From contig NC_081182.1 of assembly GCF_029867415.1 (NCBI RefSeq), positions 46,959,317 through 47,023,316 on the forward strand: DNA of 64,000 nucleotides, in the 5' to 3' direction. Positions 6,521 through 33,126 of the stretch are shown here, one piece after another (position 1 is the first letter of the stretch; each line of letters opens with the position of its first letter). Source of the DNA: Vicia villosa. Lineage: Eukaryota; Streptophyta; Magnoliopsida; Fabales; Fabaceae. Position numbers and translations under genes: made by a program. The notes under the pieces are model-generated. The model was not told the DNA's origin, did not search any database, and saw only the letters and a list, made by a program, of their open reading frames with translations.

Positions 6521-7021
6521 TATCATATCACCATATTGTAACTACATATTCTTTCTCTTTCTCCCCATCATATGATCTATCACCACAGTAATCCAATTTG
6601 TTTCTACTTTATTAGCAAGTAACCAAAGCTCTGTTTCCTTAGGATGAGGATATGTGTGTTTACCGGTGTTTTTGATAAACAATCACAAGTTTACTCCGCT
6701 TCTGATATTAACTCGAAAATTCTCGGAAGCAATTTGTGCAGAGCACGTGTGCAAAAAGTAGTGTGTGTGAATCAAATGAAACTATTTGTATAAAGACAAA
6801 GTAAATGTAGATTTTAATTGAAGCAAAGTTACTGGAAATGCAATAATTGACATTAAACAAAAGTGAAATGCAAGACAATAAAGATATTATTTTGTTTAAG
6901 GAAACAAAAAGACAATGAAAAGAAAGAGCGCAAAGTCATACATGTTTCTCACAAACGATTTCGCTCTGTAACTAGGGTACTTCGGTTCTATAGAGAATGT
7001 ATGAAACATTGCAAACTCTAC

Positions 7022-8421
7022 TGATAAGTGCCAAATTGTAGTTATTTTGTGTATAATTTTGCGGCACTTATCTTCTCTTTTTCCTCAATTTAGACGCGTT
7101 TTAGTGTATATTACATACAATACGTATACTTTGTATTTAATCAAGTTTTGGATTCACTTATGAACCGACTAATAGTTTTTCATTCATTTTGTAGGTATTT
7201 GAGCATGTATGGAGCATTGAGTAATAAAGCTTAAAGGATGCAATTTTGGATCAATAAAAGAAGAAGCAATAAAAGGAATAAAAAGTTACAGACTGGTGTG
7301 GGTCGCCAGGCGGAGCAATTGGCTCGCCGGGCAAGCGTTGGAAATTTTGGTCTTGCTTCTGCCTTGGGCCGCCTCTTGGTCGCCGGGCGGAAGAAGAAGG
7401 AGTCTCCGGGCGAAAGAAGATATTTTGCTAGCTTATTGATGTGGCAGAGGCTGTGTGGCCAGGAATAAAGGTTTCATCGGACAGAGCAATTGGCTCGCCG
7501 GGCGAAAGTCGCGTAGCAGAATTTTGTTTATATTTCATTTTCATTTCATTTGTTAGGTTATGGTTTTGGGAGAGGGTTTTTGTTCTCTCAACTCCATCAA
7601 CCACATTTTTCTCTAGGATTAGCTTAGATAACAACTTTGGGTCGTGCATTTGGTGATTCGGAGGTGGACTGCTCATCAACCGGCGCTGACAAACCAGAAG
7701 ATTCATGGTTTTATCTCTATTTCTCTCTATGTATTTATCTTAGTTGGGTTTTGTATACATATTTACTTTGAACTCATGTATATTTGTCGCCCATGGCGTT
7801 ATATAAAGCTTGCTTTACAAATCCTTGTTGATTGTAATCTTAGATTTTTGCTCTGTGCTAGGGATTTGGGTTGTTTTAGAGATAGACTTCTTGAATCCTT
7901 ATCTAGGATGATTATCTGTTAGTTTTTGAATTTTAGAGATAGATTTAGAGCTAACAATCTTTATGGGTGTCGAAGCTTAATGCTTTCGTGTTGGTTGTGT
8001 CGGTTGAGAGATCGTCGACACGATTGATATGGATGTCTGCTGTGTTGTTAGGGTGTGCTGAGAGATCGTCGTCGAGATGATATAGTATTCCTCTCTACTT
8101 TGGGTTAGAAATGACTTAGTGTGTGAGCGATGTCGGATGACATTGATGAGTACTGTAGGTTGAGTGTAACTGGTCGATAAGTTTAAGTTTGTGAGAAGTA
8201 GATTATATACAATGCTTGATAAGTCTTTTCTTTTTGAAGAATGAATTCTTTTTGTGTTGATATTTACTTTTCCGGTTTCATATTTAAATTCATTCAAAAC
8301 CAAACTCAGAACTATGGAAATTATTGAACGGCAATTCAATGCACTAGTCCCTGTGTAGACGATAATTTCCCAGATAAATACTTCTAAAACTTGTGTTGCT
8401 TGTCGCTTTACCGCTTCAACA
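7022..8421 (+). mobile_element. Solo LTR, copy 1 (1400 bp)
   Basis: Starts TGATAAGTGCCAAATTGTAG and ends CGCTTCAACA, so it has TG...CA ends, and is flanked by the perfect 5-bp target duplication TCTAC (7017-7021, 8422-8426). No internal retrotransposon region is present, hence a solo LTR left by recombination between two LTRs. The middle carries repeated GC-rich words of the CTCGCCGGGCG type (7305-7510). Short ORFs inside are not considered genes. Lineage is not assigned; the family's conserved 3' end (around TGTGTAGACGATAATTTCC) resembles Athila/Angela-type LTR ends. Confidence 0.85.
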
Positions 8422-8426
8422 TCTAC

Positions 8427-9008
8427 TACTATGTACGAGTCTGTTATTTATACTAGTCTAAAAGAATCATCGACGACATTTACACCTTTAAGCATGCAAC
8501 ACATATTCATATGTAACTTATACTTCTGAAAACACTTCCACATTACTAGGCTTACAAACTACTGAAATATCCAATATCCCATGTTCTAGCTGCTCATAGT
8601 CATTAACTGCTTCTTCAAAACCATCAGATATGATATCTGTCGACACTCTTCTCTTCAACTAACTCTGAGACTTAAAAAATTTCTATCTCTTTTGATCGGA
8701 TAACCTCGTCGACGCACGTATCGTGTCGAGATAAACTTTCGTCAAAAATTCTCTTTTCTAGATTTCAAACATATTTAGAGGAAAAATTTATCCTAATCTT
8801 ATGGATCTGCTCTTGTAATTCGTCCAAACCATACATATCATGCTGGTCGAGGCTCCTCGATCAACGCAATTGCTTATGTAGAAACTTAATTAATGCTTCC
8901 AACACTTAGCTCTGTCAAAGCTTGTTAATTAATTAATTTCCTTTTAGCTGGATTTCCATTAATTAATATCATTTTAGTTGGAATTTTCAAGCTAACAGAT
9001 GCCCCCCC
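8427..9008. other. Decayed retroelement internal DNA
   Basis: Sequence between the solo LTR and the recognisable reverse transcriptase remnant. No frame is preserved. It probably belongs to the same minus-strand Ty3/gypsy element as the RT fragment next to it; repeated in unit 2 at 12961-13541. Confidence 0.4.
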
Positions 9009-9009
9009 A

Positions 9010-9440
9010 AAAGGTCATTTTCTATCATATATGTTAGATGGAAGAAAGATAATGCTTTTGCAACCACTTCGACAATGTTTACAATAGCCTGCACAGTCAC
9101 ATCTCCCTGACCAAAATACATTACTATATTTCAAGCCAGCATTTTTTAGGCCAAAATGCATTACTACCCATCGGCCTTTGTTACAACTATTAGCCATGAA
9201 CTATGTATTGGGCCCATCGTATGGAATCATTTAATCTAATTATAACCCGAGTATGCATCCATAAAAATGAGCACTATGTAGCTTTAAGATCCATCAATTA
9301 GTCTATCAATGTTAAGCCACATATATGGATCTTTTGGACACACTTAATTGAGATTGGTGAAGTCTACCATTTTCCTCATGGATTTTTTACCAAAACCACG
9401 TTAGAAAACAAGGAAGGATATTTGATCATATTAATAAACC
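9010..9440 (-). pseudogene. Ty3/gypsy reverse transcriptase fragment, copy 1
   Basis: Translating the minus strand across stops and frameshifts gives hallmark Ty3/gypsy RT words: a VDFTNLN-like segment followed by CPKDPY, NIDRLIDG, then MDAYSGYN, and downstream WVVMHFGLKNAG (the MPFGLKNAG motif of the family). Stops replace several residues, so the gene is dead. It is the same element as the protease-like remnant near 14230-14660 (in the second copy the two are adjacent in the expected protease-then-RT order). Confidence 0.75.
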
Positions 9441-10108
9441 TGTAATCTTTTCATTTCTTAACCTCTTCCATGATAATGATTATTTTTTATACTTCTACTT
9501 TTTGGTTACTCTAGATAACAAGCTTGGACTCTATTTTGAGGAAGAAGTAATGACATACCACAACCTTATTTATTCTGGACATATCTGAGGGTGCCTAAGT
9601 GAATATATTTATTCTGGACATATTGTAACTACATATTCTTTCTCTTTCTCCCCATCATATGATCTATCACCACAGTAATCCAATTTGTTTCTACTTTATT
9701 AGCAAGTAACCAAAGCTCTGTTTCCTTAGGATGAGGATATGTGTGTTTACCGGTGTTTTTGATAAACAATCACAAGTTTACTCCGCTTCTGATATTAACT
9801 CGAAAATTCTCGGAAGCAATTTGTGCAGAGCACGTGTGCAAAAAGTAGTGTGTGTGAATCAAATGAAACTATTTGTATAAAGACAAAGTAAATGTAGATT
9901 TTAATTGAAGCAAAGTTACTGGAAATGCAAAAAGTGACATTAAACAAAAGTGAAATGCAAGACAATAAAGATATTATTTTGTTTAAGGAAACAAAAAGAC
10001 AATAAAAAGAAAGAACGCAAACTCATACATGTTTCTCACAAACTATTTCGCTCTGTAACTAGGGTACTTCAGTTCTATAGAGAATGTATGAAACTTTGCA
10101 AACTCTAC

Positions 10109-12955
10109 TGATAAGTGCCAAATTGTAGTTATTTTGTGTATAGTTTTGCGGCACTTATCTTCTCTTTTTCCTCAATTTAGAGGCGTTTTAGTGTATATTA
10201 CATACAATACGTATACTTTGTATTTAATCAAGTTTTGGATTCATTTATGAACCGACTAATAGTTTCTCATTCATTTTGTAGGTATTTGAGCATGTATGGA
10301 GCATTAAGTAATAAAGCTTAAAGGATGCAATTTTGGATCAATAAAAGAAGAAGCAATAGAAGGAATAAAAAGTTGCAGACTGGTGTGGGTCGCCCAGGCG
10401 GAGCAATTGGCTCGTCGGGCAAGCATTGGAAATTTTGGTCTTGCTTCTGCCTTGGGCCGCCTCTTGGTCGCCGGGCGGAAGAAGAAGGAGTCTCCGGGCG
10501 AAAGAAGATATTTTGCTAGCTTATTGATGTGGCAGAGGCTGTGTGGCCAGGAATAAAGGTTTCATCGGACAGAGCAATTGGCTCGCCGGGCGAAAGTCGC
10601 GTAGCAGAATTTTGTTTATATTTCATTTTCATTTCATTTGTTAGGTTATGGTTTTGGGAGAGGGTTTTTGTTCTCTCAACTCCATCAACCACATTTTTCT
10701 CTAGGATTAGCTTAGATAACAACTTTGGGTCGTGCATTTGGTGATTCGGAGGTGGATTGCTCATCAACCGGCGCTGATGTTAAGTGCCAAAATGTAGTTA
10801 TTTTGTGTTTGTAAATAGTGGCACTTATCGATACTTTTTGTTAATACCGTTTGAATAATTCCCCGTTTTTTTGTATATTTGTATCGTTTGTGTTTTGTTA
10901 CGTTTTCGTGTAAATGTATATCGTTTGATAGTTTTGTTGTCTTTTTGTAGGTATTTATGTGTGTTCGAAGCTTTGAGGAATAAAGTGTCGAAGACACGGC
11001 GGCGAACACGCGATTTTACCAATTCATCAGCGGGCAAGGCTCAAAATAAGGATGATCAAATTCATCAATTTGGTTGCAATTTGTTCATTGTTAGATAGAG
11101 CATGGAATAAGCTTTCCAACGCTTCGAACCAGGCGCAAATCGGAGTTACAGTTCTCAAGATATGACCAAAATAAGATTTCCATTTTCTGTTGAGCGGGCT
11201 AAGCGGGCTTGACCGCGCTAAGCGCGGTCTGGGAGCATTTTTGACCCGTTTGGCAGAAAGTTGGGCGCTTAGCGCGGTTTTTTGGCGCTAAGCGCGGTCT
11301 GGAGGTTTCAGAACAATAAAAAACAGCCCGCTTAGCGTGCTGGGCGCGCTTAGCGCGGTCTGCGACTTCAGTTTTGGTATATATGTTGTAAAATCACATT
11401 TTTAGGGTTTTTTTATCATCCATTTCCCCCATGGAGTGGCTCTGGTCCAATTTTGATAGTTTAGAGGCTTAGGAAACACCATTGGGTGCGACGTCATGTG
11501 GATTGATCATGGATCTGTCTCGATTTCATTGTATCGGTGAGATCTTTCTGGTTCATCTTCTCTCTTCCCTTTGTTTCATTCCAATGGTGGGTGTTGTATG
11601 TATGTTTCTACTCTTATTGTATGTATATTTGTGGATCTTGGGATCGTTTATATATTTGCTTTACAAATCATCATTGTTGTTGTTCTTGATCTTTTTGCTT
11701 AAATGCTCTGGATTTGTGTTGTTGCAGACATGGACACCATAGATCTTGATTAGGAATGATAACTGTTAGTTTCTGGGTTGCAGACATGGATTTAGGACTA
11801 ACAATCGTAGTGGGTATCGAGTCTAATGCCTCCGTGTTGTTTGTGTCGGTGGAGAAATCGCTGATGTGAATAGTACGGTTGAGCTTTCGTCGGTGTTGCA
11901 GACATGGACACCGATGTGGCATCTCGAGTGATGCCCGGTGATGTTGATGCGTATTGTGAGTGTCGAGCGATAGATCTTCAGATTTAAGTATTCGACGGGT
12001 AGAACGAAATGCAATTCCATAACTATTTCTCTTAGACTATTGAGATTGTTTATCTGCTTTTATTTACTTTTCCCGCATTTACCTTTCCGCAACCAATCAT
12101 GAAACTTAGAACGCGAGATAGTCGAACGGCAGTTTTTCTCAACCGATCTCTGTGGACACGATAATTCCCGGATGAATATTTCCAAATCTTTTGTTGCTTG
12201 CCCTCTACCGCTTCAACAGCTGACAAACCAGAAGATTCATGGTTTTATCTCTATTTCTCTCTATGTATTTATCTTAGTTGGGTTTTGTATATATATTTAC
12301 TTTGAACTCATGTATATTTGTCGCCCATGGCGTTATATAAAGCTTGTTTTACAAATCCTTGTTGATTGTTATCTTAGATTTTTGCTCTGTGCTAGGGATT
12401 TGGGTTGTTTTAGAGATAGACTTCTTGAATCCTTATCTAGGATGATTATCTGTTAGTTTCTGGATTTTAGAGATAGATTTAGAGCTAACAATCTTTATGG
12501 GTGTCGAAGTTTAATGCTTTCGTGTTGGTTGTGTCGGTTGAGAGATCGTCGACACGATTGATATGGATGTCTGCTGTGTTGTTAGGGTGTGCTGAGAGAT
12601 CGTCGTCGAGATGATATAGTAGTCCTCTCTACTTTGGGTTAGAAATGACTTAGTGTGTGAGTGATGTCGGATGACATTGATGAGTATTGTAGGTTGAGTG
12701 TAACTGGTCGATAAGTTTAAGTTTGTGAGAAGTAGATTATATACAATGCTTGATAAGTCTTTTCTTTCTGAAGAATGAATTCTTTTTGTGTTGATATTTA
12801 CTTTTCCGTTTTAATATTTAAATTCATTCAAAACCAAACTCAGAACTATGGAAATTATTGAACGGCAATTCAATGCACTAGTCCCTGTGTAGACGATAAT
12901 TTCCCAGATAAATACTTCCAAAACATGTGTTGCTTGTCGCTTTACCGCTTCAACA
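10109..12955 (+). mobile_element. Solo LTR, copy 2, interrupted by a nested solo LTR
   Basis: Same LTR as 7022-8421, with the same TCTAC flanks (10104-10108, 12956-12960). It is therefore a duplicate made by the segmental duplication rather than an independent insertion. Its body is split at 10777/12219 by the nested LTR 10778-12218. Confidence 0.85.
10778..12218 (+). mobile_element. Nested solo LTR (1441 bp), related family
   Basis: Begins TGTTAAGTGCCAAAATGTAG, ends CGCTTCAACA, with target duplication GCTGA at 10773-10777 and 12219-12223; the empty site is preserved in copy 1 near 7685-7692. Start and end resemble the surrounding LTR, so the two are related families of the same lineage. At 11195-11365 there is a cluster of palindromic GC-rich words of the type GCGCTAAGCGCGG. 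No coding region is present. Confidence 0.9.
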
Positions 12956-13542
12956 TCTACTACTATGTACGAGTCTGTTATTTATACTAGTCTAAAAGAA
13001 TCATCGACGACATTTACACCTTTAAGCATGCGACACATATTCATATGTAACTTATACTTGTGAAAACACTTCCACATTACTAGGCTTACGAACTACTGAA
13101 ATATCCAATATCCCATGTTCTAGCTGCTCATAGTCATTAACTGCTTCTTCAAAACCATCAGATATGATATTTGTCGACACTCCTCTCTTCAACTAACTCT
13201 GAGACTTAAAAAATTTCTATCTCTTTTGATCGGATAACCTCGTCGACGCAAGTATCGTGTCGAGATCAACTTTCGTCAAAAATTCTCTTTTCTAGATTTC
13301 AAACATATTTAGAGGAAAAAGTTATCCTAATCCTATGGATCTGCTCTTGTAATTCGTCCAAACCATACCTATCATGCTGGTCGAGGCTCCTCGATCAACG
13401 CAATTGTTTATGTAGAAACTTAATTAATGCTTCCAACACTTAGCTTTGTCAAAGCTTGTTAATTAATTAATTTCCTTTTAGCTGAATTTCCATTAATTAA
13501 TATCATTTTAGTTGGAATTTTCAAGCTAACAGATGCCCCCCA

Positions 13543-13975
13543 AAAGGTCATTTTCTATCATATATGTTAGATGGAAGAAAGATAATGCTTTTGCAACCAC
13601 TTCGACAATGTTTACAATAGCCTGCACAGTCACATCTCCCTGGCCAAAATACATTACTATATTTCAAGCCAGCATTTTTTAGGCCAACATGCATTACTAC
13701 CCATCGGCCTTTGTTACAACTATTAGCCATGAACTATGTATTGGGCCTCTCGTATGGAACATTTAATCTAATTATAACCCGAGTATGCATCCATAAAAAT
13801 GAGCACTATGTAGCTTTAAGATCCATCAATTAGTCTATCAATGTTAAGCCACATATATGGATCTTTTGGACACACTTAATTGAGATTGGTGAAGTCTACC
13901 ATTTTCCTCATGGATTTTTTACCAAAACCACGTTAGAAAACAAGGAAGGATATTTGATCTTATTAATAAACCTGT
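13543..13975 (-). pseudogene. Ty3/gypsy reverse transcriptase fragment, copy 2
   Basis: Duplicate of the remnant at 9010-9440, with the same RT words on the minus strand (CPKDPY, NIDRLIDG, MDAYSGYN, FGLKNAG). Stops and small indels persist, so it is inactive. Here the upstream part of the same element (protease) is preserved at higher coordinates. Confidence 0.75.
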
Positions 13976-14144
13976 AATCTTTTCATTTCTTAACCTCTTC
14001 CATGATAATGATTATTTTTTATACTTCTACTTTTTGGTTACTCTAGATAACAGGCTTGGACCCTATTTTGAGGAAGAAGTGATGACATACCACAACCTTA
14101 TTTATTCTGGACATATCTGAGGGTGCCTAAGTGAATATATTTAT

Positions 14145-15342: not shown

Positions 15343-15630
15343 TGATAGGAAGAAATTCCTACCAAGAATATAGAATTAGGGTTTAAACAATAAAAGAGAA
15401 AGACATTAAAATAAAGCTAAGAAAATAGAGATAAAAGATAAATTTGATTTCTTTGATTGATATCCTTAATTGTGTCAAAGACACTACATATATAGTATTC
15501 ATAGTGGATCCTTAACTAGAAGACCCAAACACTATAAAAAGCCCAATAACTATAAAAGTACTACTAATAAAAATTAGACATTAATTTAAATAACTAAATT
15601 ATTTATCTAAATAATTTCTCTTCTCTATCA
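15343..15630 (-). repeat. 3' LTR of the captured-gene element
   Basis: 288 bp, TG...CA bounded. The fusion ORF runs through the LTR edge, and its stop codon at 15599-15601 lies inside this LTR, so the last ten codons are LTR-encoded. Confidence 0.95.
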
Positions 15631-18514
15631 TTACCAACCCCTTCAAAAACAACCTTGTCCTCAAGGTTGTAAACCAAATTGCTAAATCAAGTTTTCCTGG
15701 ATCCCATTGCTTGAATTTGGAGAGCCAAACTTTTTTGCACATCTTCAATTGCTCACTAGGATCCCCACATGTTATCCTCCTTTCACTTACAAGGCTGACA
15801 GTTTTAGAACTATAACAGGTTCCCTTATTTGTACCATGGGTGGGGGACAGTAAGTTTAAAGGGGTATACGTGAACCAAGTAAACAATCTAGTAACCCAAA
15901 CTTTGCCTCCAAGCACAAGTTGTTGTTCAGAAGCTTCATGTATTCCTTCTAGTGGGTTGGCATTATAGACAAGATACCATACACACTGGTTACTGAAGAT
16001 ACACCTCAAGCCTTTAGCAACAACCTGCCGGCAAACACCGGAGCCCAGCCAATTATGAATTACTGTTCGTGGAAGGAGCTTTGTGGGAAATGTCACAGGA
16101 GTCTTGTTTTTCGAAAGAGCCATGTGTTGAGCATTCAATACAAAATATTGATAAGCATCATTAGCAGTCATGCTGTGATCCTGAAGCCACTTATTCACAC
16201 GGGCAGTATTGGTCCAGCAATCTGTATTCACTTCATCTTGAGCTTCAAATAATTTTCGATGCGTCAATAGTTGGAAGATAAGATATGCAATCTCCATCAC
16301 AATACTAGCAAATCTTGAAAATTGCAGAGATGAATCTGCATCGATAGTAACCGAAACCCCACCATATTGGAACAATAAGGGCAGTAAGTGATACAATAAT
16401 GCCATAAGAAACATAAGCAAGTTCATATCTGCCTGTCTTCTGTCGAATTTTTGCTTGGCTCGAATATTTGCAATGCTGCCGCATAATAGAGAGGTTCCAA
16501 GAACAAGAAGAAGGTCGGAGAGGATGGAACCAAGTAGAGAATACTTGACCACATCAATTTTGTTATTGCTAAGTGCAAATATTGCAATGATGAGTTCTGT
16601 AGAAATACTAGATGGATCCTGTTTCGACGCGAGAAACTTCTGAACGATCTTGGACGCACTGTCAAGCAACTGCTCTCCTTGAGGAAGTTTGTAAACAGAC
16701 ATAACAGCCAGAATAGCATTTCTCCAAACAAAAGGATGATGATGTTCGAGATTCGACAAAATCGAAAGGATCAACGGTTCAATGATATCAGATTCATTAA
16801 TACGGCAAAGGAACCAAAGAATGAACTCGTTGGGCGATTGAAGATTGTTACGGAGATTCTGACAACTGAGGATCATCTGTACTCTAAACATTTCACTGGT
16901 CTTATCATTGATAATAGAATCATGTTCAGACTCAGAGTAATCCAACTCTATAGCAGTGAAAATAAGACTCTCAAACAGTTGACGCAGGTTCGCCTCAGGT
17001 GGTGGAGGTACCGCCGTAGCAGCGGCATCAATCAACAACACAGTCTTAAGCAAAATCTCAAGCAAAGGAGCAGCAAAATTATCGAGACAATGCTTTGAAG
17101 TAGCAATCAAATGAAGAACAATTTTAGTATCAGAAGTAGTGTTAAAAATTGAACCTTTTTCTTCAAGCTTAGCTCTGAAAGTGCGATAGTTAACCAAATC
17201 AATGTCACTAGTTTTCTGATCATTGATTTGAACCACTGCTTCTTCAGCTTGTGCGTCTACTTCCAGTTTCTTTTCAACACTGTTGCTTTCTTTTGCATAT
17301 TCTTGTGCAATTTCTCCCACCATTTCTAAAGGGCTTATATCACCTTCAATCAAATGAAGCTGAGGATCAGTACTGAAAGTAATAACCTTCCCTTTCCAAG
17401 GTTCCTTACTCAATTCAGAAACCAACAATCCTAACGCAACAGACACCACCATAGGGATCCCATCCATGCTCCCAGACACATCACACACAACAATACAATT
17501 AGTCATCTTTCCTTTTTTGAGCAAATCATCAACTATTCTCTTCCATTGCAGCTCAGCAACTTCCCCACCATCTCCATCACCCAAAGACCCTATAATCTCA
17601 TGGTGAATCAAAGCACCAGCTGCAATAGTAGTCTTCCCATCTTTCTTGTCGTTAATCTGTTTACGAATTGCGGATTCAGTGTTTCGGATGTCGACAATGG
17701 GCTTAGAGCGGAAGAGAGACTCGGCATCACGGTAGCCGGTAGTGGAAATGTGGTGGTCGTCGAGATGAGGCGACGCCGCTGGAGGAGATAAGACTCTCAT
17801 GGTTGTGGCGGTGAGCGGTGGTTGGGGTTTATAGATTGACGCCGGTGGTAGCTCCAGTGGTGAGATCTCTCTCACCGACTCTATTTCTTCAGTTTTCTGG
17901 AGTTCTTCTATAGATGCTAAGTCGAGATAGGATCCGATAGCTGGACCTTCTCCTTTTTCGGCCATCATCGAACAGAATGCTAGGGTTTGGTTTTGATTTG
18001 TACGCGAAGGAGAAAAGACTATGGGTTTGGTGTTTTTGGTGACGGGAAGAGTTAACTGAATAAGGGCTGAGTCAGGTAGAATCCTTGGAAATGGAAGATG
18101 CGTTGTCATTCCTCCTCTGACTGCACTAAGCATGTTTTGTTTTTTTAGTTTCTTTTTCTTAAAAGAGGGGTGAGACACCTGCAAGTGTTTCTCAAAATCA
18201 CGTTTAATTGTGTAAAAGGTTTTTGTTGGTTGTAGTTGATGATGATTATGGTAGTAGTATGAATAAGGAGATGATGAATATGGGTTAGGATTAGGTGTAT
18301 GTGGTGAATACCCATGATTTGGATACAAACTTGGTGATGGTGTTGGAACATATGGATTTGTGTAATAGGGTGAGAAAAGTTCCCATGGAAATGATGGAAA
18401 TGAAGGTATGGTAGGAGTTATGAAAGAGGGGTTTGTGGGATAGGTAGGAGGAATGCTCCATTGATGAGATGAAGGTGTAAGATAAGGGTAATTCATTGGA
18501 GGATTTGAGTACAT
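15599..18514 (-). CDS. Chimeric retrotransposon-borne ORF built from at least seven host genes
   Basis: One uninterrupted ORF of 971 codons starts with the ATG 15 bases inside the 5' LTR and ends within the 3' LTR. Residues 1-134 are Pro/Tyr/Ser-rich with a basic KKKKLKKQ patch (119-126). Recognisable segments follow in order: about 239-290 COG1 N-terminus; 291-391 DUF2828/vWA; 440-474 amidophosphoribosyltransferase; 475-515 exportin-2; 546-636 coatomer beta; 637-759 CAX exchanger; 760-870 GH20 beta-hexosaminidase. The last 100 residues look like retroelement 3' sequence read in frame. Segments 135-238, 392-439 and 516-545 are unassigned. Every piece is a truncated domain, so parental activities are not expected; the CAX part would still supply membrane helices. 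The frame has survived with no stop, which fits recent origin or selection. It could be translated from an LTR transcript, but nothing here proves it. This is not a normal host gene. Confidence 0.9.
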   Translation of the reverse strand: MYSNPPMNYPYLTPSSHQWSIPPTYPTNPSFITPTIPSFPSFPWELFSPYYTNPYVPTPSPSLYPNHGYSPHTPNPNPYSSSPYSYYYHNHHQLQPTKTFYTIKRDFEKHLQVSHPSFKKKKLKKQNMLSAVRGGMTTHLPFPRILPDSALIQLTLPVTKNTKPIVFSPSRTNQNQTLAFCSMMAEKGEGPAIGSYLDLASIEELQKTEEIESVREISPLELPPASIYKPQPPLTATTMRVLSPPAASPHLDDHHISTTGYRDAESLFRSKPIVDIRNTESAIRKQINDKKDGKTTIAAGALIHHEIIGSLGDGDGGEVAELQWKRIVDDLLKKGKMTNCIVVCDVSGSMDGIPMVVSVALGLLVSELSKEPWKGKVITFSTDPQLHLIEGDISPLEMVGEIAQEYAKESNSVEKKLEVDAQAEEAVVQINDQKTSDIDLVNYRTFRAKLEEKGSIFNTTSDTKIVLHLIATSKHCLDNFAAPLLEILLKTVLLIDAAATAVPPPPEANLRQLFESLIFTAIELDYSESEHDSIINDKTSEMFRVQMILSCQNLRNNLQSPNEFILWFLCRINESDIIEPLILSILSNLEHHHPFVWRNAILAVMSVYKLPQGEQLLDSASKIVQKFLASKQDPSSISTELIIAIFALSNNKIDVVKYSLLGSILSDLLLVLGTSLLCGSIANIRAKQKFDRRQADMNLLMFLMALLYHLLPLLFQYGGVSVTIDADSSLQFSRFASIVMEIAYLIFQLLTHRKLFEAQDEVNTDCWTNTARVNKWLQDHSMTANDAYQYFVLNAQHMALSKNKTPVTFPTKLLPRTVIHNWLGSGVCRQVVAKGLRCIFSNQCVWYLVYNANPLEGIHEASEQQLVLGGKVWVTRLFTWFTYTPLNLLSPTHGTNKGTCYSSKTVSLVSERRITCGDPSEQLKMCKKVWLSKFKQWDPGKLDLAIWFTTLRTRLFLKGLVMIEKRNYLDK
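15905..16237 (-). other. Captured fragment: GH20 beta-hexosaminidase
   Basis: ORF residues 760-870 contain DEVNTDCWTNTARVNKWLQD, NDAYQYFVLNAQHMAL, RTVIHNWLGSGV and VVAKGLRCIFSNQ. This is the second half of the catalytic barrel of plant beta-hexosaminidase. The Asp-Glu at 760-761 aligns with the family's catalytic pair and lies exactly at the fusion with the CAX piece. The barrel is incomplete and an internal stretch (around 803-812) is shortened. Confidence 0.9.
16238..16606 (-). other. Captured fragment: CAX-type vacuolar cation/proton exchanger
   Basis: ORF residues 637-759 contain TELIIAIFAL, then KIDVVKYSLLGSILSDLLLV and LGTSLLCGS, a charged loop with KFDRRQAD, further hydrophobic segments and HRKLFEAQ. 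This is the middle of a plant CAX antiporter, starting within the first conserved cation-selection repeat (its upstream Gly-Asn is missing) and ending in the acidic-loop region. It would add about three to four membrane helices. Confidence 0.93.
16607..16879 (-). other. Captured fragment: coatomer subunit beta
   Basis: ORF residues 546-636 contain QMILSCQNLRNNLQSPNEF, then FLCRINESDIIEPL, NLEHHHPFVWRNAILAVMSV and YKLPQGEQLL. These are diagnostic of the N-terminal HEAT-repeat trunk of beta-COP, a COPI coat subunit. Several substitutions and a small deletion after NEF suggest decay or divergence since capture. Confidence 0.92.
16970..17092 (-). other. Captured fragment: exportin-2 (CAS/CSE1-like)
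   Basis: ORF residues 475-515 contain HCLDNFAAPLLEILLKT and LLIDAA, then LRQLFES. This is characteristic of a HEAT-repeat stretch in plant exportin-2, the recycling factor for importin alpha. Only about 40 residues are present; a short poly-Pro insertion (503-506) differs from what I remember of the family. Confidence 0.7.
17093..17197 (-). other. Captured fragment: amidophosphoribosyltransferase (PurF-type)
   Basis: ORF residues 440-474 contain NYRTFRAKLEEKGSIFNTTS followed by DTKIVLHLIATSK. This corresponds to a short stretch in the glutaminase half of plant amidophosphoribosyltransferase, the first enzyme of purine synthesis. Only about 35 residues are present and no catalytic centre is included. 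Confidence 0.72.
17342..17644 (-). other. Captured fragment: DUF2828 / vWA domain
   Basis: ORF residues 291-391 match the C-terminal vWA-like part of plant DUF2828 proteins: GEVAELQWKRIVDDLLKKGK, then VVCDVSGSMDGIPM with an intact metal-ion-dependent adhesion site (DxSGS, 345-349), then VSELSKEPWKGKVITFS and LHLIEGD. The domain is cut after about 100 residues. The parent function is unknown. Confidence 0.9.
17645..17800 (-). other. Captured fragment: COG1 N-terminus
   Basis: ORF residues 239-290 contain GYRDAESLFRSKPIVDIRN and a following AIRKQINDKK stretch. This matches the N-terminus of plant conserved oligomeric Golgi complex subunit 1, including a Met-Arg-Val start-like sequence (239-241). 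The piece stops in the middle of the first conserved helix region, just before the DUF2828 segment, with a lysine-rich junction. Confidence 0.8.
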
Positions 18515-18529
18515 GATGAAAGCACCAAT

Positions 18530-18817
18530 TGATAGGAAGAAATTCCTACCAAGAATATAGAATTAGGGTTTAAACAATAAAAGAGAAAGACATTAAAATA
18601 AAGCTAAGAAAATAGAGATAAAAGATAAATTTGATTTCTTTGATTGATATCCTTAATTGTGTCAAAGACACTACATATATAGTATTCATAGTGGATCCTT
18701 AACTAGAAGACCCAAACACTATAAAAAGCCCAATAACTATAAAAGTACTACTAATAAAAATTAGACATTAATTTAAATAACTAAATTATTTATCTAAATA
18801 ATTTCTCTTCTCTATCA
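18530..18817 (-). repeat. 5' LTR and likely promoter of the captured-gene element
   Basis: 288 bp, reads as identical to the left LTR. On the minus strand a TATA-like CTATATATG word is present near 18672-18682, so this LTR could drive the ORF, whose ATG lies only 15 bases past the LTR edge. Confidence 0.9.
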
Positions 18818-23022: not shown

Positions 23023-23900
23023 TGTAACACCCCACACATATATGTCTAGAATAATATGCATAAAATATTAATTATGGTCCATAGACGAAAAATACATAAT
23101 ATTCGCAACGGAAATAGAAGTACACAAATACAAAAGCCGAATGTATCATGGCCAAAATATTAGTACATCACAGGAGTACATGTCCAAAATACAAGAACTA
23201 GTAAGCACGATAAAGGAACTAAAAGAAACATCCAACATGCATCGCCAAAAGGACTAATCCATCTTGCTCTTACCACGATCTTGCCTCGAACCACCTGAAA
23301 AAGATAGAATTGGAATGGGATGAGATTACTAAATCTCAGTGAGTCCGCCTATCCTAGTAGTCCGCTCGGATCTAAAGGGTACATGCATCAAAACCGAATC
23401 CACCATTGATCCGGGATTTATCCTCACATCCGGTACAAGCACGGAGAAAACAAGGAATCGTCTACCATAGAACTCATCATATTACAAGTACACGAATAGT
23501 ACAAAAACACGTATGCAGACCCATACCCATGTACGGGGGATCCAGAAGTGGTAACAACCAAACTACCAAGGCTGCACACACACCCTCGGTGAGTAACCAA
23601 GTACCTGTCGTCAAAAAGACTCGCACAAGACCCATCGCTAGATGAAAAAGATAGATCCTATGTGGCATTCCATCCGTGATGAGTTACAGCGGTGATGTTG
23701 CCTACACGGCGTCACGGCCTCATCATCATCCATATGCAATATGGTATCCACAAGTGCGAATACGCCTAATTGACTGTACAAGCCCATCCGGTTAGGAGCC
23801 TAAAAGTGTAGCCTACATGGCACCATTAGAGGTGGGTTACCCAAGTGATTTCGTCTAATTGGCATCACAACTCCACCATACCAAGCACGCCAGGTGTATT
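23023..23900 (-). repeat. 3' LTR of the Tekay-like element, left part
   Basis: Matches 45019-45896 with scattered substitutions. It ends at GTATT, the target duplicated by the Ogre-like insertion. Confidence 0.9.
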
Positions 23901-26900
23901 TGTCATACCCCAAAATTTGCCCTCCATGTTCCATTCACAATGATTCAGAGTTCAAGATTCAATGCCAAAGCTTTGCTCAAACAATCCCCAAGATACACAG
24001 TCAACTGATTCAATCCTGAAGGTCAACTACAATCAAAGCATGATTCAAATTATGATCATTGGTCAAACATCAAGTATAGAGGAGTATAACCATCATTTGA
24101 TCAAGAATGATCATGATTCCATTAATAGAAACTCAGAGATGAGCAAATGCAAAAAGGTTCAAATTAGGGTTTCTTAGGAGAAAGTCAACCCAACTTTGAC
24201 TGGGCATAACTTTCACATGGAACATCAAAAATTCCCCACTCAAAGCCTATTTTGAAGGAAATTGGATTCCCTACAACTTTGTCTCTCACAAGCCAGGGCT
24301 AGAAATGATTCATTTGAGAGATACAATGCAAAAGATTACAGGTCATTTTCAGGCATCCCTCAAAAGCAGTTTTTTCGCAAAGAGGATATGGTCAAGATAA
24401 AAGCTCCAAGTGAAAAATATATTCCAAAGTGGCTTATAGAGGACCTCTTGAGGTTTCCAAAAAGTCTTAGAACTCCCTCATAGCTTAAAAATTGAGTGAG
24501 ATATGCTTGGTCAAAGTAGGGTAATTTTGGAGGACCAAATGTGAAATAAAAGAGGTCAAAATGGAATTTTTCACAAGTGGGCCTATGTTTTGCAATCCAA
24601 ACTTGATCCATAAGATATCTAGGCTTCCCAAGACACATGCTACGAAGTTAAATATTTTATTTGAATTTTTAAGGATTTTATTTCATTTTTTTAATGATTT
24701 AATCAAGATAAAAATCAAATATTTTGTTAAAAGGTGCATATTGATCAAATTCAATCAGCATTTATGTCAAAACACAATATAATTTTCGTGCACAAATGAT
24801 TGAAAAATATTGGCATGAGATTTGGCAAAAATAGAAAGTTTATATTCAAGATTTGAATCAATTTTTACAAACTTGGCAAGAGTGGATTTAGTGATCATTG
24901 GGCCTCAAATTCTTGACCTAATACAAGCCTATAAGTAGATGAAGGTATGCATACGAATCGGGGTTGAAAATCTGGACCAGAGGCACAAGCTCAAGAACAC
25001 AAAAACTCACCAAAAACTTGAGATTCGGTTTTGGAGAATTAACCGTTTGCAAGAAGAATTAAGAAGTGCAAAACGTTTCTCAAGCGATTCTGAACGTGTG
25101 AGGATCATTACGCATCATCAACAACCCCAGAATCTCTCCATATAAGCCCAGGTACGTGGTTCTGAATCTTTGCTCGATGTGCATAATTGTCGCATTCATG
25201 TGTTAAATTATGTGTATGTTATGCTTGGTGTGATGACCGTGATCGTTTCTAGATAGTTTATTTGAAGTTTGTGTGTCTGATACATGATATGCCATTAGAA
25301 GTCAAACGAAGCTTTTAGGGTTTCAATTGGGGTTTTCCCATACAGGTTAAATTAAGCCTAATTAATGGTATAATTGGATCCGTATGATAGAAACGAAAGG
25401 GAAGGATAGGTCGCGCCTTATTTATGTGAACGTATATGCAAATCGTTGTTTCACAGGTTTAATTGCTACGAAAAACTGCGTGGCGAAATCGTAGCAAATT
25501 CATAGAGTCTTTTGCAGGTGTTTTGGGGAAGATGATGGCGTGTCAACGCCCGGTTGGTGTGTTTGAATTCGCGCGCGCGTTTTCATGTATATGTTTCACA
25601 TTTTTTTATATTGCAGCGAGCGTGAGTCTTAAACAGTTGAAACGTTTGGTTGAGTTGGTTAAAGGGCGCATCTGGGAGTGGGAGGTCATGGGTTCGAGCC
25701 TCCCCTCCTTCATTATTTTTCTGATGAAATCACTTCTTGATCCGGTACCTGCGCCTGCGCATAGACTATCATACGCCCTCACGATCCAACCCTTGATCCC
25801 CACTATTCCTAGATCTAACGCCCCCAGCCTGGCTCCCCTATACTATACACCCCAAGCCTAACCACACTGAACCAAAACTCCATAAATCTAAATTAATTTC
25901 AATTAAATATATGTTTTATTTAATTCTTTTTAATATATTTATCTATATGACACTAATTACTTTTATAAGTAATTTAACATATGATATTTATATTAAAAAA
26001 TGCAAATTGTTGTTCGTGCCGATTAAATCGATTAATCGCTATGGTCAACAATAATTTTAACTAAATGTTTATTTAATTAAAATACAATTAATTTCTATTT
26101 AGTTAAATGGTTTCAACCATCCTCATTGGTTGTGATGATTAACTATTCAATTTCCTCATTCCTAATTCGTTATTCTTTTTAATCGAATCAATCGATTACG
26201 AGGGATAACGATACAAATTAATTATTAAATTATTAAAATACAATTCAATTATATTCGATCAAATGGTTGCAACTATCTTATTAGTTGTGATGATTAATCC
26301 TTTTTTCTAACTTCAAATTTGTTATTCTTTTTAATCGAATCAATCGATTGCGAGGGGTAACAATGCAAATCAAATTCATAATTATTAAAAATACCTTAAT
26401 TCATTATTAGTGATAATCGAATCAATCGATTAAAATTGATAGTGATGCAATCTCAATCTTTTAACTATGGCGATTGAATCTATTGATCGTTGCGGTTAAT
26501 AGTGCTAAATCAAACCAGGGTTGTACGCCCACATTCTAAAACACTCCTCGAAACCTTTCAAAACCACGATACTACGGATTTACATCCTTTCAAACACTGC
26601 GATGTTCATAACTACGATAAGGTAATTCAAAATACCTTCGAACTTCGCATTTCAAAACCACTTCAAAACAACTTCAAACACATTCATATCAAATTCTAAG
26701 GCGTACAATCCTGTGCCCCCGAACTACGTAGACTCTGATCCTCCATAAGGAGGTACGTAGGCACTTGGCAACAAGGCGAGTCCCCCTCTTCCAAACTCTA
26801 ATCATGTTCAAATAATTAGCCTTTAACTCTATTTACTGTCTGTCATCTTTCTTTATCTTTTGCCACAAACCTTCACCTTTGCAATGTTAACCTTTAGGAA

Positions 26901-27060: not shown

Positions 27061-27957
27061 AAACTATAATGGTGAATACTATGCTCCTATAGGTTTTAGG
27101 TTTTGGCAGGGTTTAGGTTTGACAACTTTTTAGGGTTTGGCTAATTCGCCTTTTTTAGGGTTTGCAATTATTTTTTTTGTTTTTTGTCTAAAAAAAAAAT
27201 ATTTAATTGTTTATATTAATATGTTTATATTTATTTGTTTATGTGAATATATTTATATTTTATTGCCTGCTGTTATATTTTTATATGCACTGCTGGATAT
27301 TATGTCGTGTTAAAACCCTAAGTGTGGGAGTTAACTTTGAGATCAATAGGGGAGTATGAATCTCCTACGAGTCTCATTGATAATTCCACTCGGAGTGGGT
27401 TGAGTGTTCGGAAATGTCCAAAACGAGGCTTGACTTTGTTGAGGGCAGGACTGGATACTTGGCTGATCTCTCCGAGAACCTACCCCAAAAATTCGAACCT
27501 CATGGATAAAGTGAGTTGTTCTAAAATCCGAAGAGACAAAAAGTCTCGGATGAGACCTTCTAGAACCCCCTATGAAAAGGCTGGCTCCCAAGAGCCGCTA
27601 CGTCGAACCTATGAACCTGGATTTCTTGAAATATTATGATATGATTTGCATTTTTGCCTTGTATGATTTGTTTTTGTTTTGTTTGTTTGTTGCTACATCT
27701 TTGTGTTTTCATGCATCATTCCTCATCTGCATTCTTGCATCATGTCTTATCCAAAAAAAAAGATATAAAAAAAGGATTTTATCCATAGATGTGGGTAAAG
27801 GCATCAATACAAACAAAGCATATCACGCATGGCATACGCATCATTTTCATGGCATTAAGAGAAGATTTCTCTTCTATCTTCAGACCAAGGGACCATTGGG
27901 AAGGATAACCTAACATCCCGACCGTCTTATCAAACCAGATTTCAGCAAAAGAAATTG
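27061..27957 (+). other. 5' leader of the Ogre-like element
   Basis: No long ORF. Open frames at 27322-27639 and 27572-27913 are short and lack recognised motifs. Full Ogre elements carry an additional ORF upstream of gag; it is not identifiable here. Confidence 0.5.
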
Positions 27958-29475
27958 ATGGAGCAGCTAGAACAAAATCAAACTGCCCTTCGTGAAGATG
28001 TGGATCAACTAAAGGTTAGTGTGGAAGAGGTTAAAGGAGGTATGGCTCAGATGCTAGAATTCATGAAGGCCCTCATGGACAACAAAGAAAAGGCAAAAGA
28101 GGTTCAGTCTAGGGATACCCTGGTTCAGGATGAGATCCCCAACGACGAAAACCCGCTGCTAGGATTTGTTCCAGGCTTTGGCCCTACTAAGGACAGACCT
28201 CAAGTTCGCTCTGTTAGGAGAGCTATCCAATTCCAAGAAAAAGGAGAGACCTCTCAAGAAGGATTTGTCCCCACTCTGCAAACGAAGGGGACAACCCACA
28301 CAGTTCGCATTCCTGCTGACAATGTCCCTAAGGACGAAGATTACCTGGATCTACAATACGGGGTGCAAGAGGTGGACAATACAGCCCAAGCACCTCAGAC
28401 ACAACAGTCTGTTCCTAACTCTAAGGAAGACTCCAAGGGTAGTGAACAAATCAAGGCGCTGGAGGAGAGACTAAAAGTGATAGAAGGATACGATGTCTTC
28501 GATGTGGATGCCTTCGAAATGAGTTTGGTCTCAGACTTGACCATCCCTCGCAAATTCAAGATTCCCGATTTCGAGAAATACAAAGGACTCACATGTCCGA
28601 GGAATCACTTGCGCATGTATGTACGAAAAATGGCTGCTTATGCCCACGATCAAAAGCTGATGATACATTTCTTTTAAGAAAGTTTAAGCGGAGCGTCTAT
28701 TGACTGGTATATGCAACTAGAGAAGTCTTCTGTCCGAAGCTGGAATGATCTGGCCAACACCTTCTTAAAGCATTACAAGTACAACTTGGACATGGCACCC
28801 GATCGGATGCAATTACAAAACATGTCACATAAGAAGGATGAATCATTCAAGGAGTATGCCCAAAGGTGGAGGGAAATGGCTTCTCGAGTCCAACCTCCCC
28901 TAATGGACAAAGAACTGGTGGACATATTTATGAGCACTTTGCAAGGACCATACTACGACAAGATGGTCGGATGCACATCTTCGGGGTTCTCGGACATGGT
29001 AGTCATTGGCGAAAGAATTGAAGATGGGATAAAAAATGGGAAGATACAAGGGGCACCCTCAGGTTCCTATCACACAAAAAAGTCATATGACGGAAAAAGG
29101 GAACCCAACACTGTTGGAGCGATCCTGGTTAATCAGACACCAACACTACAACAGAAGGATCAGCAAAAACAACAGGGTGGCCAACGCCCCTGGAGGTCCA
29201 AGCCAAAACGATCATTCACCACATTGCACATGCCACTGTATCAAGCTCTGCAACGTCTGCTCAGTCAGAACTTGATAACTCTGCTGCCTCCATATTCAGC
29301 TCCGACTAACCCCGCTCCCGGGTACAAGCATCATGCTAGGTGCGCTTATCATTCAGATAGTCCTGGTCATGATACAGAGGATTGTGGTCCATTGAAGCAC
29401 AAGATCCAAGATTTGATTGAAGAAGGGCTCATTGAGTTCGAAGATCCTAGCAAGTCTAACACCATAGGTGGCTAG
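27958..29475 (+). pseudogene. Ogre/Tat-like gag with one premature stop
   Basis: Starts at ATG 27958. The N-terminus is a coiled-coil-like stretch (ALREDVDQLKVSVEEVKGGM). The gag core follows: PRKFKIPDFEKYKGLTCPRN, a TAA stop at 28675-28677, then in the same frame SLSGASIDWYMQLEKS, HKKDESFKEYAQRWREMASR, a GFSDMVVIGERIEDG segment, and a C-terminal zinc-binding-like CAYHSDSPGHDTEDC. The order and motifs are those of Tat/Ogre gag. The frame stays open on both sides of the single stop. No pol follows. Confidence 0.88.
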
Positions 29476-30899: not shown

Positions 30900-33110
30900 A
30901 CCTTTATAGGATATTTCTCATTCTATCCGTGCAGTCTTCTTTAAGACATGTTCAAACACTCCTTACCCTTTCTAGGAACTTTTTCAGATAGTCTTTTAAG
31001 ACACATTTTCCTATCCCTTCTATTTTTCAAACCCTTTCAGACAGTCTTCTCTAAGACATATTCTTTTCTACGAACCTTTTCTAGGTAGTCTTCTGTAAGA
31101 CATCTCTTAACTTCTTTCAATCAGTCTTTTAAGACATGTTCAAACTTTTCTTATGATTTCCAAAACCTTATCAAACTTTGTTTAAAGTATAGAGTCTTTT
31201 CTAAGACAATTCACCATCCTTTCTGGGGATGATCTTCTTCAAGATGTCTTTTCCTAAGTTTTGTTTAAAACCCCACAAACAGTCTTTATCCTCTATAGGA
31301 ATCATTTTTGACCATCTGCACAAACATATCCCTTCGAGCTTTGTTTAAAGCGCAGTCTTGTTTAAGACAATTTCCCATTCTTTCCAAGGACCTCTTCAGG
31401 TAATCTTATAAAAGACATTATCTCATTCTGAGTACTCAGCAAATCACCATCCGTCAGGCGCTACCGAAACGCGTGACTCACTCTGAAAAGCTTCTGCTTC
31501 ACATCCAACACTTACAATCAAGAATCCTATTGACTAGGGGCATTCTTTTCCAAGAATTCAAACACTGGGGCAATGCATATCAGGCAAGACATGGTGAAAT
31601 TCGAGTTCCCTCGAAAGGTCCCTCCTTCAAATCCAGGGGCACATCTCTCAAAATTTCCGATATTCGGGAAGTCATACTAGCATCATACAAAGAGCATTGT
31701 TGCATATTTGATCTTCTCACGCCTGTACTATTCACATCCCGCAGTGTGGGATAGGCGCACATGCATAATTCTCATTGAGAATCTCATTACATAGTACATG
31801 CATCATGACATTGCATAAAAACTAACGCTACCTTTTTAGGTCACTTCATAATCAAAAAGATGTTATCATCCAATTACAGTGCAAATACGATCGTATCAAC
31901 GATTCAGTCTTAACAGATACAATTCTAATACCTCATTCCAAGTCTTTCTTCAAAGATAATACAGAGGCAACCAAAGAATTTCTTACCTCTCCAGGTAGTC
32001 TTGTCCAAGACAATTATCTCAATCTTTCCAAGCTGTCTTGTTTAAGACATATCATCTCCCGTCTAAGAGCCTTTCCAGGTCAATTTTGTTTAAGATGCTT
32101 CATATCTTTTTAGAAGCCTATCTAGGTAATCTTGTCTAAAGACGTTCATACCTTTATAGGAACCTTTCTAGGTAGTTTTGTTTAAAACGTCTCACGACCT
32201 TTATAGGGATCTGTATAGGTAGTTTTGTTTAAAACATATCATCCCCTTTGTAGGAACCTCTATAGGTAGTTTTGTTCAAAACGTTTCATGTCCTTTATAG
32301 GAATCTGTTTAGGTGAGTTTTGTTTAAAACGTGTTGTATCCTTTATAGGAACCTTTATAGGTAGTTTTGTTTAAAACATATCATCCCCTTTGTAGGAACC
32401 TCTATAGGTAGTTTTGTTTAAAACGTTTCATGTCCTTTATAGGAATCTGTTTAGGTGAGTTTTGTTTAAAATGTATCATATCCTGTCTAAGAGCCTCTCC
32501 AGGTCAGTCTTGTCTAAGACGTATCACACCCTTTCCAAGTACTTTTATAGGTCAGACTTGTTTAAGATGTATCGTACCTTTCTAGGCAATCTTGTTTAAG
32601 ACATGTTGTGACCTGTATAGGTAATCTTGTTCGAAACGTTTTCGAATCCTCTCTAAAAAACCCTCTTCAGGTAGTCTTCTGCAAGACATTCTTCTTCTAA
32701 GCACCTTTTCAGGTAATTTTCTTCGAGACATTCTTGTCCTAAGCACCTTTTCAGGTAGTCTCTTTCAAAAAAAACAATTTGGCATCCTTTTCAGTCTTCT
32801 TTAAGACATTCTACGAACCTTTCTGGGTGATCTTTTCTAAGACATTCATTGTCCTCTCCAAGAATCTCTTTAGGTAGTCCTTGCAAAACATTTCCAGCCT
32901 CTTCAGGTAGTCTTCTTCAAGACAAATTTCCGTATCCATTCCAGAAACCTCTTCAGGTAGTCTTATGTAAGACATTACTTTATATCTCTTCAGATACAAT
33001 CAAATGGGTGGCATCTATAAGCCCATCTCCCACAGAGCTCCTTTCCTATGCAAGCAAATTTCAGGGCATTTTAGTGTCCAATCGTCTTCCACCTCTTCAG
33101 GTTCAAGAAG
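30900..33110 (+). repeat. Long imperfect tandem-repeat region in the 3' part of the Ogre-like element
   Basis: Repeats of the theme CTTTTYAGGTAGTCTTNTTTAAGACA run for about 2.2 kb. The best-preserved block, 32148-32480, has 47-48-bp units of the type CCTTTATAGGAACCT-CTATAGGTAGTTTTGTTTAAAACG. A two-unit stretch recurs (32231-32333 and 32375-32471), giving a higher-order period of about 143 bp. Hypervariable 3' repeats of this sort are known from legume Ogre elements and can seed satellites. Confidence 0.85.
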
Positions 33111-33126
33111 ATTGAACAGGGGCAGC

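Follow-up and report, generated by a model that had tools for sequence, protein, structure and literature searches.

An LTR element of Vicia villosa with pieces of at least seven host genes in one reading frame

Introduction

How can one open reading frame inside a mobile element run through fragments of seven or more host genes, unrelated to one another, and stay open to its end? This question is raised by a locus in Vicia villosa, located at C3:46959317-47023316 of the 2.03-Gb assembly; this whole stretch of 64,000 nucleotides is referred to here as the window. It contains a 3.5-kb element bounded by long terminal repeats (LTRs), called the window copy (WIN), and other loci of the same family are designated by L-numbers. 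An earlier note, made from the letters of the window, had described a single 971-codon frame within an LTR element and the fusion of fragments from at least seven unrelated host genes in that frame. Both statements were borne out, each named family being matched by Pfam, PDB, protein or DNA search. Moreover, the V. villosa genome holds a family of such elements, in which the LTR, the ATG and the leader are constant and the cargo is variable. As an overall account of the origin of the window copy, template switching combined with a filter against long 3′ untranslated regions (3′ UTRs) is favoured here with moderate confidence, on the strength of sequence comparison.

Structure of the element and its reading frame

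The window copy lies on the minus strand, as do all of its features given below, and shows the marks of an LTR retrotransposon, namely direct LTRs, TG...CA termini and a target site duplication (TSD). The 5′ LTR (18530..18817) and the 3′ LTR (15343..15630) are each 288 bp long and 100% identical, with termini TGATAG...CTATCA, and the 5-bp TSD TTAAT borders the element. The internal region, 2899 nt in length, begins with a stretch resembling a primer binding site (PBS), ATTGGTGCTTTCATC (18515..18529), with an ATG immediately after it. This putative PBS region contains TGG, a near-identical stretch with the same ATG layout occurs in most family members examined, and a purine-rich stretch is also in place. 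At the opposite end, a tail common to L041, L002 and L009 (15631..15896) finishes with GAGGACAAGGTTG...GAAGGGG, which abuts the 3′ LTR, recurs in several family members and is probably the polypurine tract region.

A single frame of 971 codons extends across the whole internal region (15599..18514), from an ATG at 18514, 15 nt past the 5′ LTR, to a stop at 15599, 32 nt into the 3′ LTR. The internal region has 0 stops in this leader frame versus 39-83 in each of the five other frames, and a plus-strand frame was ruled out by its 40 stops. Pfam and PDB searches of the window frame gave no matches to reverse transcriptase, integrase, protease or capsid; since this is the element's one frame, the element is regarded as non-autonomous. 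It is a rather probable reading that the window copy is a recently inserted LTR retrotransposon of this non-autonomous kind and belongs to a V. villosa family.

Host-gene pieces in the frame

All seven named host families are present in the frame, i.e., COG1, DUF2828/vWA, amidophosphoribosyltransferase, exportin-2, coatomer beta (beta-COP), CAX and GH20 hexosaminidase. The frame opens with a Pro/Tyr/Ser-rich leader (residues 1 to about 120 to 125; 18155..18514), which recurs at dozens of loci and in which no Pfam domain was found in the window copy. A correction concerns residues 1-125, which are the constant leader of the family and come from no named host gene. The leader is followed by a module shared with L022, L023 and L028 at 95-96% (17800..18154).

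Next comes an N-terminal piece of COG1, the conserved oligomeric Golgi subunit 1 (17646..17800), with 87% identity to a V. villosa COG1-like protein in the protein search. Pfam reports no COG1 domain in this 52-residue piece on its own, and the DNA search yielded no COG1 host locus. Its identity is settled by the protein search together with the longer COG1 stretch of L028 (Pfam VPS51_Exo84_N, 2e-15). The DUF2828/DUF7788 vWA piece (17338..17645; 308 nt) has two host counterparts on C2, at 105.85 and 105.60 Mb, with 94-95% DNA identity. Pfam gives 2.5e-18 for DUF7788 and 9.9e-6 for DUF2828 in the window frame, the latter being under Pfam's own cut-off. This piece contains an internal in-frame jump, LIEGD|ISPLE, where the host reads DNEGDISPLE. 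The joint between the COG1 and DUF2828 pieces falls in a 6-nt microhomology, GAAAGA, common with the COG1 continuation in L028.

The amidophosphoribosyltransferase (ASE) piece (17090..17199) is shared with L044 and L045 at 95-96%. It matches the PDB entry 'Amidophosphoribosyltransferase 2, chloroplastic' over 36 residues (1.8e-7); GATase_7 scores 4.8e-4 in the window copy, under Pfam's own cut-off, and 1.8e-19 in the longer piece of L044. For the exportin-2 (CSE1/CAS) piece (16970..17095), the locus C389:287526, with 81% DNA identity and a CSE1-like translation, is the probable host gene, and many further copies exist in the genome. The coatomer beta piece (16606..16878; Pfam Adaptin_N 5.8e-11, PDB coatomer beta 7e-16) corresponds to the host gene at C5:596802-597086 (84%). 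The piece of a CAX cation/proton exchanger (16235..16602; Pfam Na_Ca_ex 3.8e-10, PDB 'Vacuolar cation/proton exchanger 1' 7e-40) matches a host tandem gene cluster at C5:12.35-12.44 Mb with 88-96% identity by exon. Finally, the GH20 beta-hexosaminidase (HEX) piece (15897..16225; Pfam GH20 3.5e-7) is 78-95% identical by exon to the host gene at C2:9795970-9796769. No assignment was obtained for residues about 126-238, 399-438, 517-541 and 887-945. Residues about 183-194 may resemble the N-terminus of HSP70.

Origin of the pieces from spliced RNA

The HEX piece aligns successively with four exons of its host gene (query 13-51, 50-145, 145-189 and 188-341), which there are spaced by 239, 114 and 86 bp; those introns are absent from the window piece. 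The first and third host gaps fit GT/AG borders, and the second was read on the donor side only. At the second exon border, the window copy has a 21-nt in-frame deletion relative to L041, where the reading TPVNWEETFNTFPTKLL runs on across the border. Similarly, the CAX piece joins two host exons and misses an intron of 273 or 278 bp that is found in the four cluster copies. Because the host introns are absent, the HEX and CAX pieces are attributed to spliced RNA. Intron absence is a finding for these two pieces only; the exportin-2, coatomer and DUF2828 pieces fall within single exons or long open frames and are uninformative in this respect.

A direct capture at the DNA level was ruled out by the intron-free HEX and CAX pieces. 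The same observation bears on the explanation that the mosaic is an artefact of assembly or annotation, or else a Pack-type capture of DNA instead of RNA. No point in support of it was found, while exact TSDs, paired LTRs and independent copies on many contigs also oppose it, so almost no weight is given to this explanation.

The family in the Vicia villosa genome

A protein query of the genome gave 56 matches to the window protein, about 34 of which begin in the leader. When LTR and leader together served as the DNA query, at least 43 matches were obtained (40 of 1746 first-look candidates scored). In total, 37 loci were examined, comprising the window copy, 20 from protein matches, 6 selected for long open frames and 10 DNA-ranked loci, the first not yet fetched in the LTR-plus-leader ranking, which were added to lessen bias. 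L039 (C4:102509500-102516500), where two family leaders stand side by side in opposite orientation as nested or adjacent insertions, was excluded from element counts, being two adjacent elements with wrongly paired LTRs. Paired LTRs were found in 27/37 loci, and an exact 5-bp TSD in 16 of these 27. In 11/27 paired-LTR elements, a frame of 780-983 aa ends between -125 and +34 nt relative to the start of the 3′ LTR: the window copy (971 aa), L029 (961), L032 (813), L035 (973), L040 (780), L041 (983), L042 (908), L043 (918), L044 (910), L051 (868) and L055 (931). The C-termini vary among these intact members; WIN and L042 share one, and several have QWDPG. The DNA-ranked sample also contains two elements with just 3-4 in-frame stops.

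The cargo differs between members. Pfam domains elsewhere in the family include HSP70/HSP110, Noc2, dynamin, GH3, ketol-acid reductoisomerase, protein kinase, CTP synthase, class-V aminotransferase, NOP5NT, copper amine oxidase and sieve element occlusion, as well as pieces of GH38 mannosidase, CID, O-fucosyltransferase, RPW8 and DEAD helicase. Further pieces, recognised by PDB search, belong to arginine decarboxylase, a dipeptide epimerase, a subtilase and a CCR4-type nuclease. In L023, for instance, an RPW8 domain piece occurs with an O-fucosyltransferase piece. Moreover, L023 and L026 have a Ty3-capsid-like piece after the shared module (E 0.0025 in L026, under Pfam's cut-off), and none was found in the window element by the Pfam and PDB searches of its frame. 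Such a piece possibly goes back to a gag of the family's ancestor or was taken up from another retroelement.

Several family members are annotated by NCBI as protein-coding genes. One of them, P0034 of V. villosa, is a mosaic labelled 'probable alpha-mannosidase At5g13980' and starts with the COG1-containing module of the window element. Such annotation, together with a dN/dS below 1 (see below), would fit the exaptation of the chimeric frame as a new vetch gene selected for its protein. Nevertheless, the cargo differs between lineages, the constraint on sequence is weak, and the identical LTRs and the TSD of the window copy indicate a recent mobile insertion, so host exaptation is regarded as very improbable. 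An ordinary conserved gene or retrogene, occurring in related species without LTRs as the earlier note had considered, was ruled out: in a collection of 5.8 billion sequences, the leader-bearing proteins (534-1699 aa) were V. villosa mosaics in 8/8 cases.

Exchange of modules between elements

Among the examined elements with paired LTRs, the nearest relative switches along the window copy. The leader is nearest to L022 (98%), the COG1 module to L027 and L028 (92-94%), the ASE module to L044 (96%), the CAX module to L053 (94%) and the HEX module to L041 (90%), and the LTR resembles those of L027 (96% over 184 nt), L046 (90%) and L042 (89%). In the comparison with L041, the CAX-HEX cargo has 94% DNA identity versus 63% for the LTRs. 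L011 and L012 have the exportin-2 and coatomer stretch in common with the window copy (about 90%). The exportin-2 module is represented, in part, at 35 places, 6 of which, the window included, reach past the downstream joint.

Each assigned module of the window copy occurs at one or more other family loci, which indicates that this copy arose largely through recombination among family members; for none of its pieces can a capture by this copy itself be demonstrated. The earlier note's description of a collector of transcripts, supported by the two intron-free pieces, holds for the family, with the amendment that the window copy was largely recombined from sister elements. The DUF2828 piece had been a candidate for a capture exclusive to this copy, and this was dropped, as L060, a place matched by residues 273-393 of the window protein, carries a COG1-DUF2828 fusion, with a COG1 piece ahead of a DUF2828 piece 96% identical to that of the window. 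About 48 nt of the window's joint are missing from that of L060, where the DUF2828 part continues colinear with the host. On the same strand, 7.6 kb before L060, lies L021, a leader locus that is broken. Within this region (C4:100612300-100623000), the leader with COG1 cargo in L021 breaks off at residue 273, and a 198-nt repeat present in both loci (96%) points to the nesting of a further repeat element inside.

Constraint on the reading frame

The intact frame, which had struck the earlier note, was present as described, but it appears to be no lucky accident, since frameshifts in cargo are about ten-fold depleted across the family. A first test covered six module pairs within open frames (2327 codons). 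It gave 95 synonymous and 200 non-synonymous differences, with dN/dS of 0.66-0.83 for kappa 1-3. Indels were multiples of three in 11/11 cases in the cargo pairs versus 8/37 in LTR comparisons. Nonsense changes numbered 0 versus 12-18 expected neutrally, an absence that follows from the choice of modules. This test is biased because only modules inside open frames were used; it left out L029/L042 (21% diverged; indels 4, 15, 159 and 6) and WIN/L046 (overlapping pairs).

The test was repeated with every cargo match that reached 85% identity and 150 nt, whatever the state of the element. These 46 comparisons, which omit long gaps as such gaps split matches, held 1605 substitutions and 40 indels, 25 of them multiples of three. 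Frameshifting indels per substitution amounted to 0.0093 in cargo versus 0.093 in LTRs, while the values for multiples of three were similar (0.016 versus 0.026). The LTR control consisted of 19 within-element pairs and 7/17 between-element pairs, 10 having been dropped at more than 25% divergence. A hand-chosen subset of 12 pairs had 8 frameshifts per 630 substitutions (p 4e-8) and multiples of three in 13/21 indels (p 0.004), these p-values being optimistic because comparisons share lineages. In the cargo of L052 and L055, 66 substitutions over 1973 nt are accompanied by zero indels. As judged from frameshift depletion and from dN/dS of 0.66-0.83, the openness of the frame is kept more than the protein sequence. 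Frameshifts thus appear to be avoided across element lineages, with the frame decaying with age.

The absence of any selection on the frame has also to be considered, in which case the captured coding pieces would have been open already, the copies would be young, and the intact ones would have been picked. The intact share of 8/14 at LTR identity of at least 99%, versus 3/13 in the rest, agrees with this, and so does the sampling: the first sample was picked by protein similarity, and in the DNA-chosen one 2/8 elements with paired LTRs (10 fetched) are intact. However, DNA divergence of the shared modules is 1-15%, in most cases above that of the LTR pairs of the same elements, and the ten-fold rarity of frameshifts persists with the inclusion of pairs in which a member is broken. 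Furthermore, a neutral simulation left the frame intact in 18% of runs at 0.5% divergence and in 2.5% at 1%. This explanation is therefore considered improbable.

Proposed mechanism

The favoured account, template switching followed by a filter on translatability, may be outlined as follows. The constant ends, i.e., the LTR, the PBS-like start, the ATG, the leader and the stretch before the 3′ LTR, would carry a variable string of pieces of host cDNA. Reverse transcription would occur in particles from a putative autonomous partner, with mobilisation in trans, and the enzyme would switch between the RNA of the element, host mRNAs packaged along with it and RNAs of sister elements. Translation of the mosaic RNA so formed would begin at the leader ATG. 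A frame that closes early would leave a long 3′ UTR and lead to removal of the RNA, most likely by nonsense-mediated decay (NMD), so that mosaics open nearly to the 3′ LTR would yield most new copies. The chimeric protein itself is probably a by-product.

Of the possible filters, NMD is proposed as the simplest: in plants, a long 3′ UTR exposes an mRNA to degradation (PMC3711448), and the constraint acts on openness more than on sequence and the C-termini are not uniform. A wider generalisation is more tentative, with a likelihood put slightly short of even: there may be a class of retroelements selected for little beyond translatability to the end, consisting of in-frame chains of host cDNA, in which template switching exchanges modules and NMD sets the frame.

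Several points weigh against this account. No full frame is present in 16/27 paired-LTR elements; L052 is broken despite identical LTRs, and the full frame is also missing from L026, L033, L045, L054 and L056, in which LTR identity is 99% or more. Hence an open frame was not invariably present when elements last inserted. The low intact share of the DNA-chosen sample belongs here as well, and dN/dS below 1 leaves room for some constraint at the protein level. L027 is the nearest relative of the LTR and of the COG1 module alike, and for this reason not every module indicates a separate source. In addition, the 3′ UTR lengths of element RNAs are guesses.

Age and intactness sometimes disagree within the family. 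L052 has identical LTRs and a frame broken in the leader, and in L055, which carries the cargo of L052, LTR identity is 92% and the frame is complete at 931 aa.

The main rival to the NMD filter is a leader protein needed in cis. According to this explanation, the element uses the mosaic protein, and a Gag-like leader for packaging or localisation would need a filler of some length and stability at its C-terminal side, with selection keeping the two in one frame. The leader is indeed conserved in the family (dN/dS about 0.58; indels in multiples of three in 16/16 cases over 11 non-independent pairs), and the frame is maintained in the cargo. On the other hand, this dN/dS is not strongly low, the window leader lacks a Pfam domain, the identity of the cargo varies freely and the C-termini differ, and the leader role alone needs no frame running to the 3′ LTR. 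Such a function of the mosaic protein is thus judged unlikely, though less so than the absence of frame selection, and the NMD filter is retained as the preferred reading.

Comparison with known gene-capturing elements

The comparisons with published systems refer to the accessible portions of the cited papers. In maize, the Bs1 LTR retrotransposon contains three host genes (PMC13317346), and the likeness is one of architecture, a chimeric gene inside an LTR element being composed of segments from several host genes unrelated to each other (PMC13317346). The window element, with exons of at least seven host families and intron absence in HEX and CAX, is of this Bs1 type. It differs in that its frame holds at least seven genes versus three, and in that the V. 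villosa family is many-membered, with varied cargo, exchanged modules and a measured frame constraint. The soybean terminal-repeat element GmaRetroS15, a TRIM with fragments of three host genes, is likewise a legume element in which host gene fragments are bounded by LTRs, and capture by TRIMs is likened to exon-only capture (PMC4717578). That text mentions no long frame through all fragments and does not present a combinatorial family. Membership of the window element among TRIMs was dropped on size, as its internal region of 2899 nt exceeds the whole carriers of 1172-1449 bp (1.17-1.45 kb; PMC4717578).

Surveys of rice and sorghum report hundreds of genes captured by LTR elements (PMC3726574). 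In maize B73, 425 LTR elements with host gene fragments were described, and no single element had fragments of more than one standard nuclear gene under the conditions of that paper (PMC2774510), unlike the V. villosa family, which commonly has several genes per element. TR-GAG elements are also non-autonomous LTR elements with one open reading frame, probably mobilised in trans, but their frame encodes GAG (PMC8704663), whereas the V. villosa element has a leader and host cargo. Pack-MULEs and Helitrons carry host gene fragments too, sometimes in chimeric transcripts; theirs is capture by DNA transposons (PMC13317346), in contrast to the RNA-level capture and LTR/TSD structure of the V. villosa family.

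A search of open-licence literature, with subscription papers outside it, found no account of the V. villosa family or of such a frame constraint, and the accessible part of a paper on another vetch assembly mentions LTR expansion and no gene-capturing element (PMC12984296). The scale of capture and the frame constraint appear new against the three-gene Bs1 precedent; in the literature found, multi-gene LTR capture has so far rested on Bs1 and the soybean TRIM, with three genes each. The family provides many natural experiments in one genome, in which RNA-level gene fusion, including joint microhomology and source mRNAs, is open to direct questions. It also bears on whether RNA surveillance filters retrotransposon cargo and on the rate at which new multi-domain frames arise; if the proposed mechanism is true, such elements would keep generating them. 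Finally, there is a hazard for annotation, since several mosaics are catalogued as vetch genes, one of them as an alpha-mannosidase.

Other repeats in the window

Further repeats occur in the window. Positions 6532-14059 contain overlapping direct repeats, 98-100% identical, with spacings of about 3.09 and 4.53 kb, which are probably nested or duplicated. A tandem array with a 47-nt unit, in six overlapping 142-nt copies, occupies 32127-32504. Two LTR-like direct repeats of 300 nt (23891-24190 and 33117-33416) are 99% identical and 9.2 kb apart, and an open reading frame between them (27955-28677) appears gag-like by eye.

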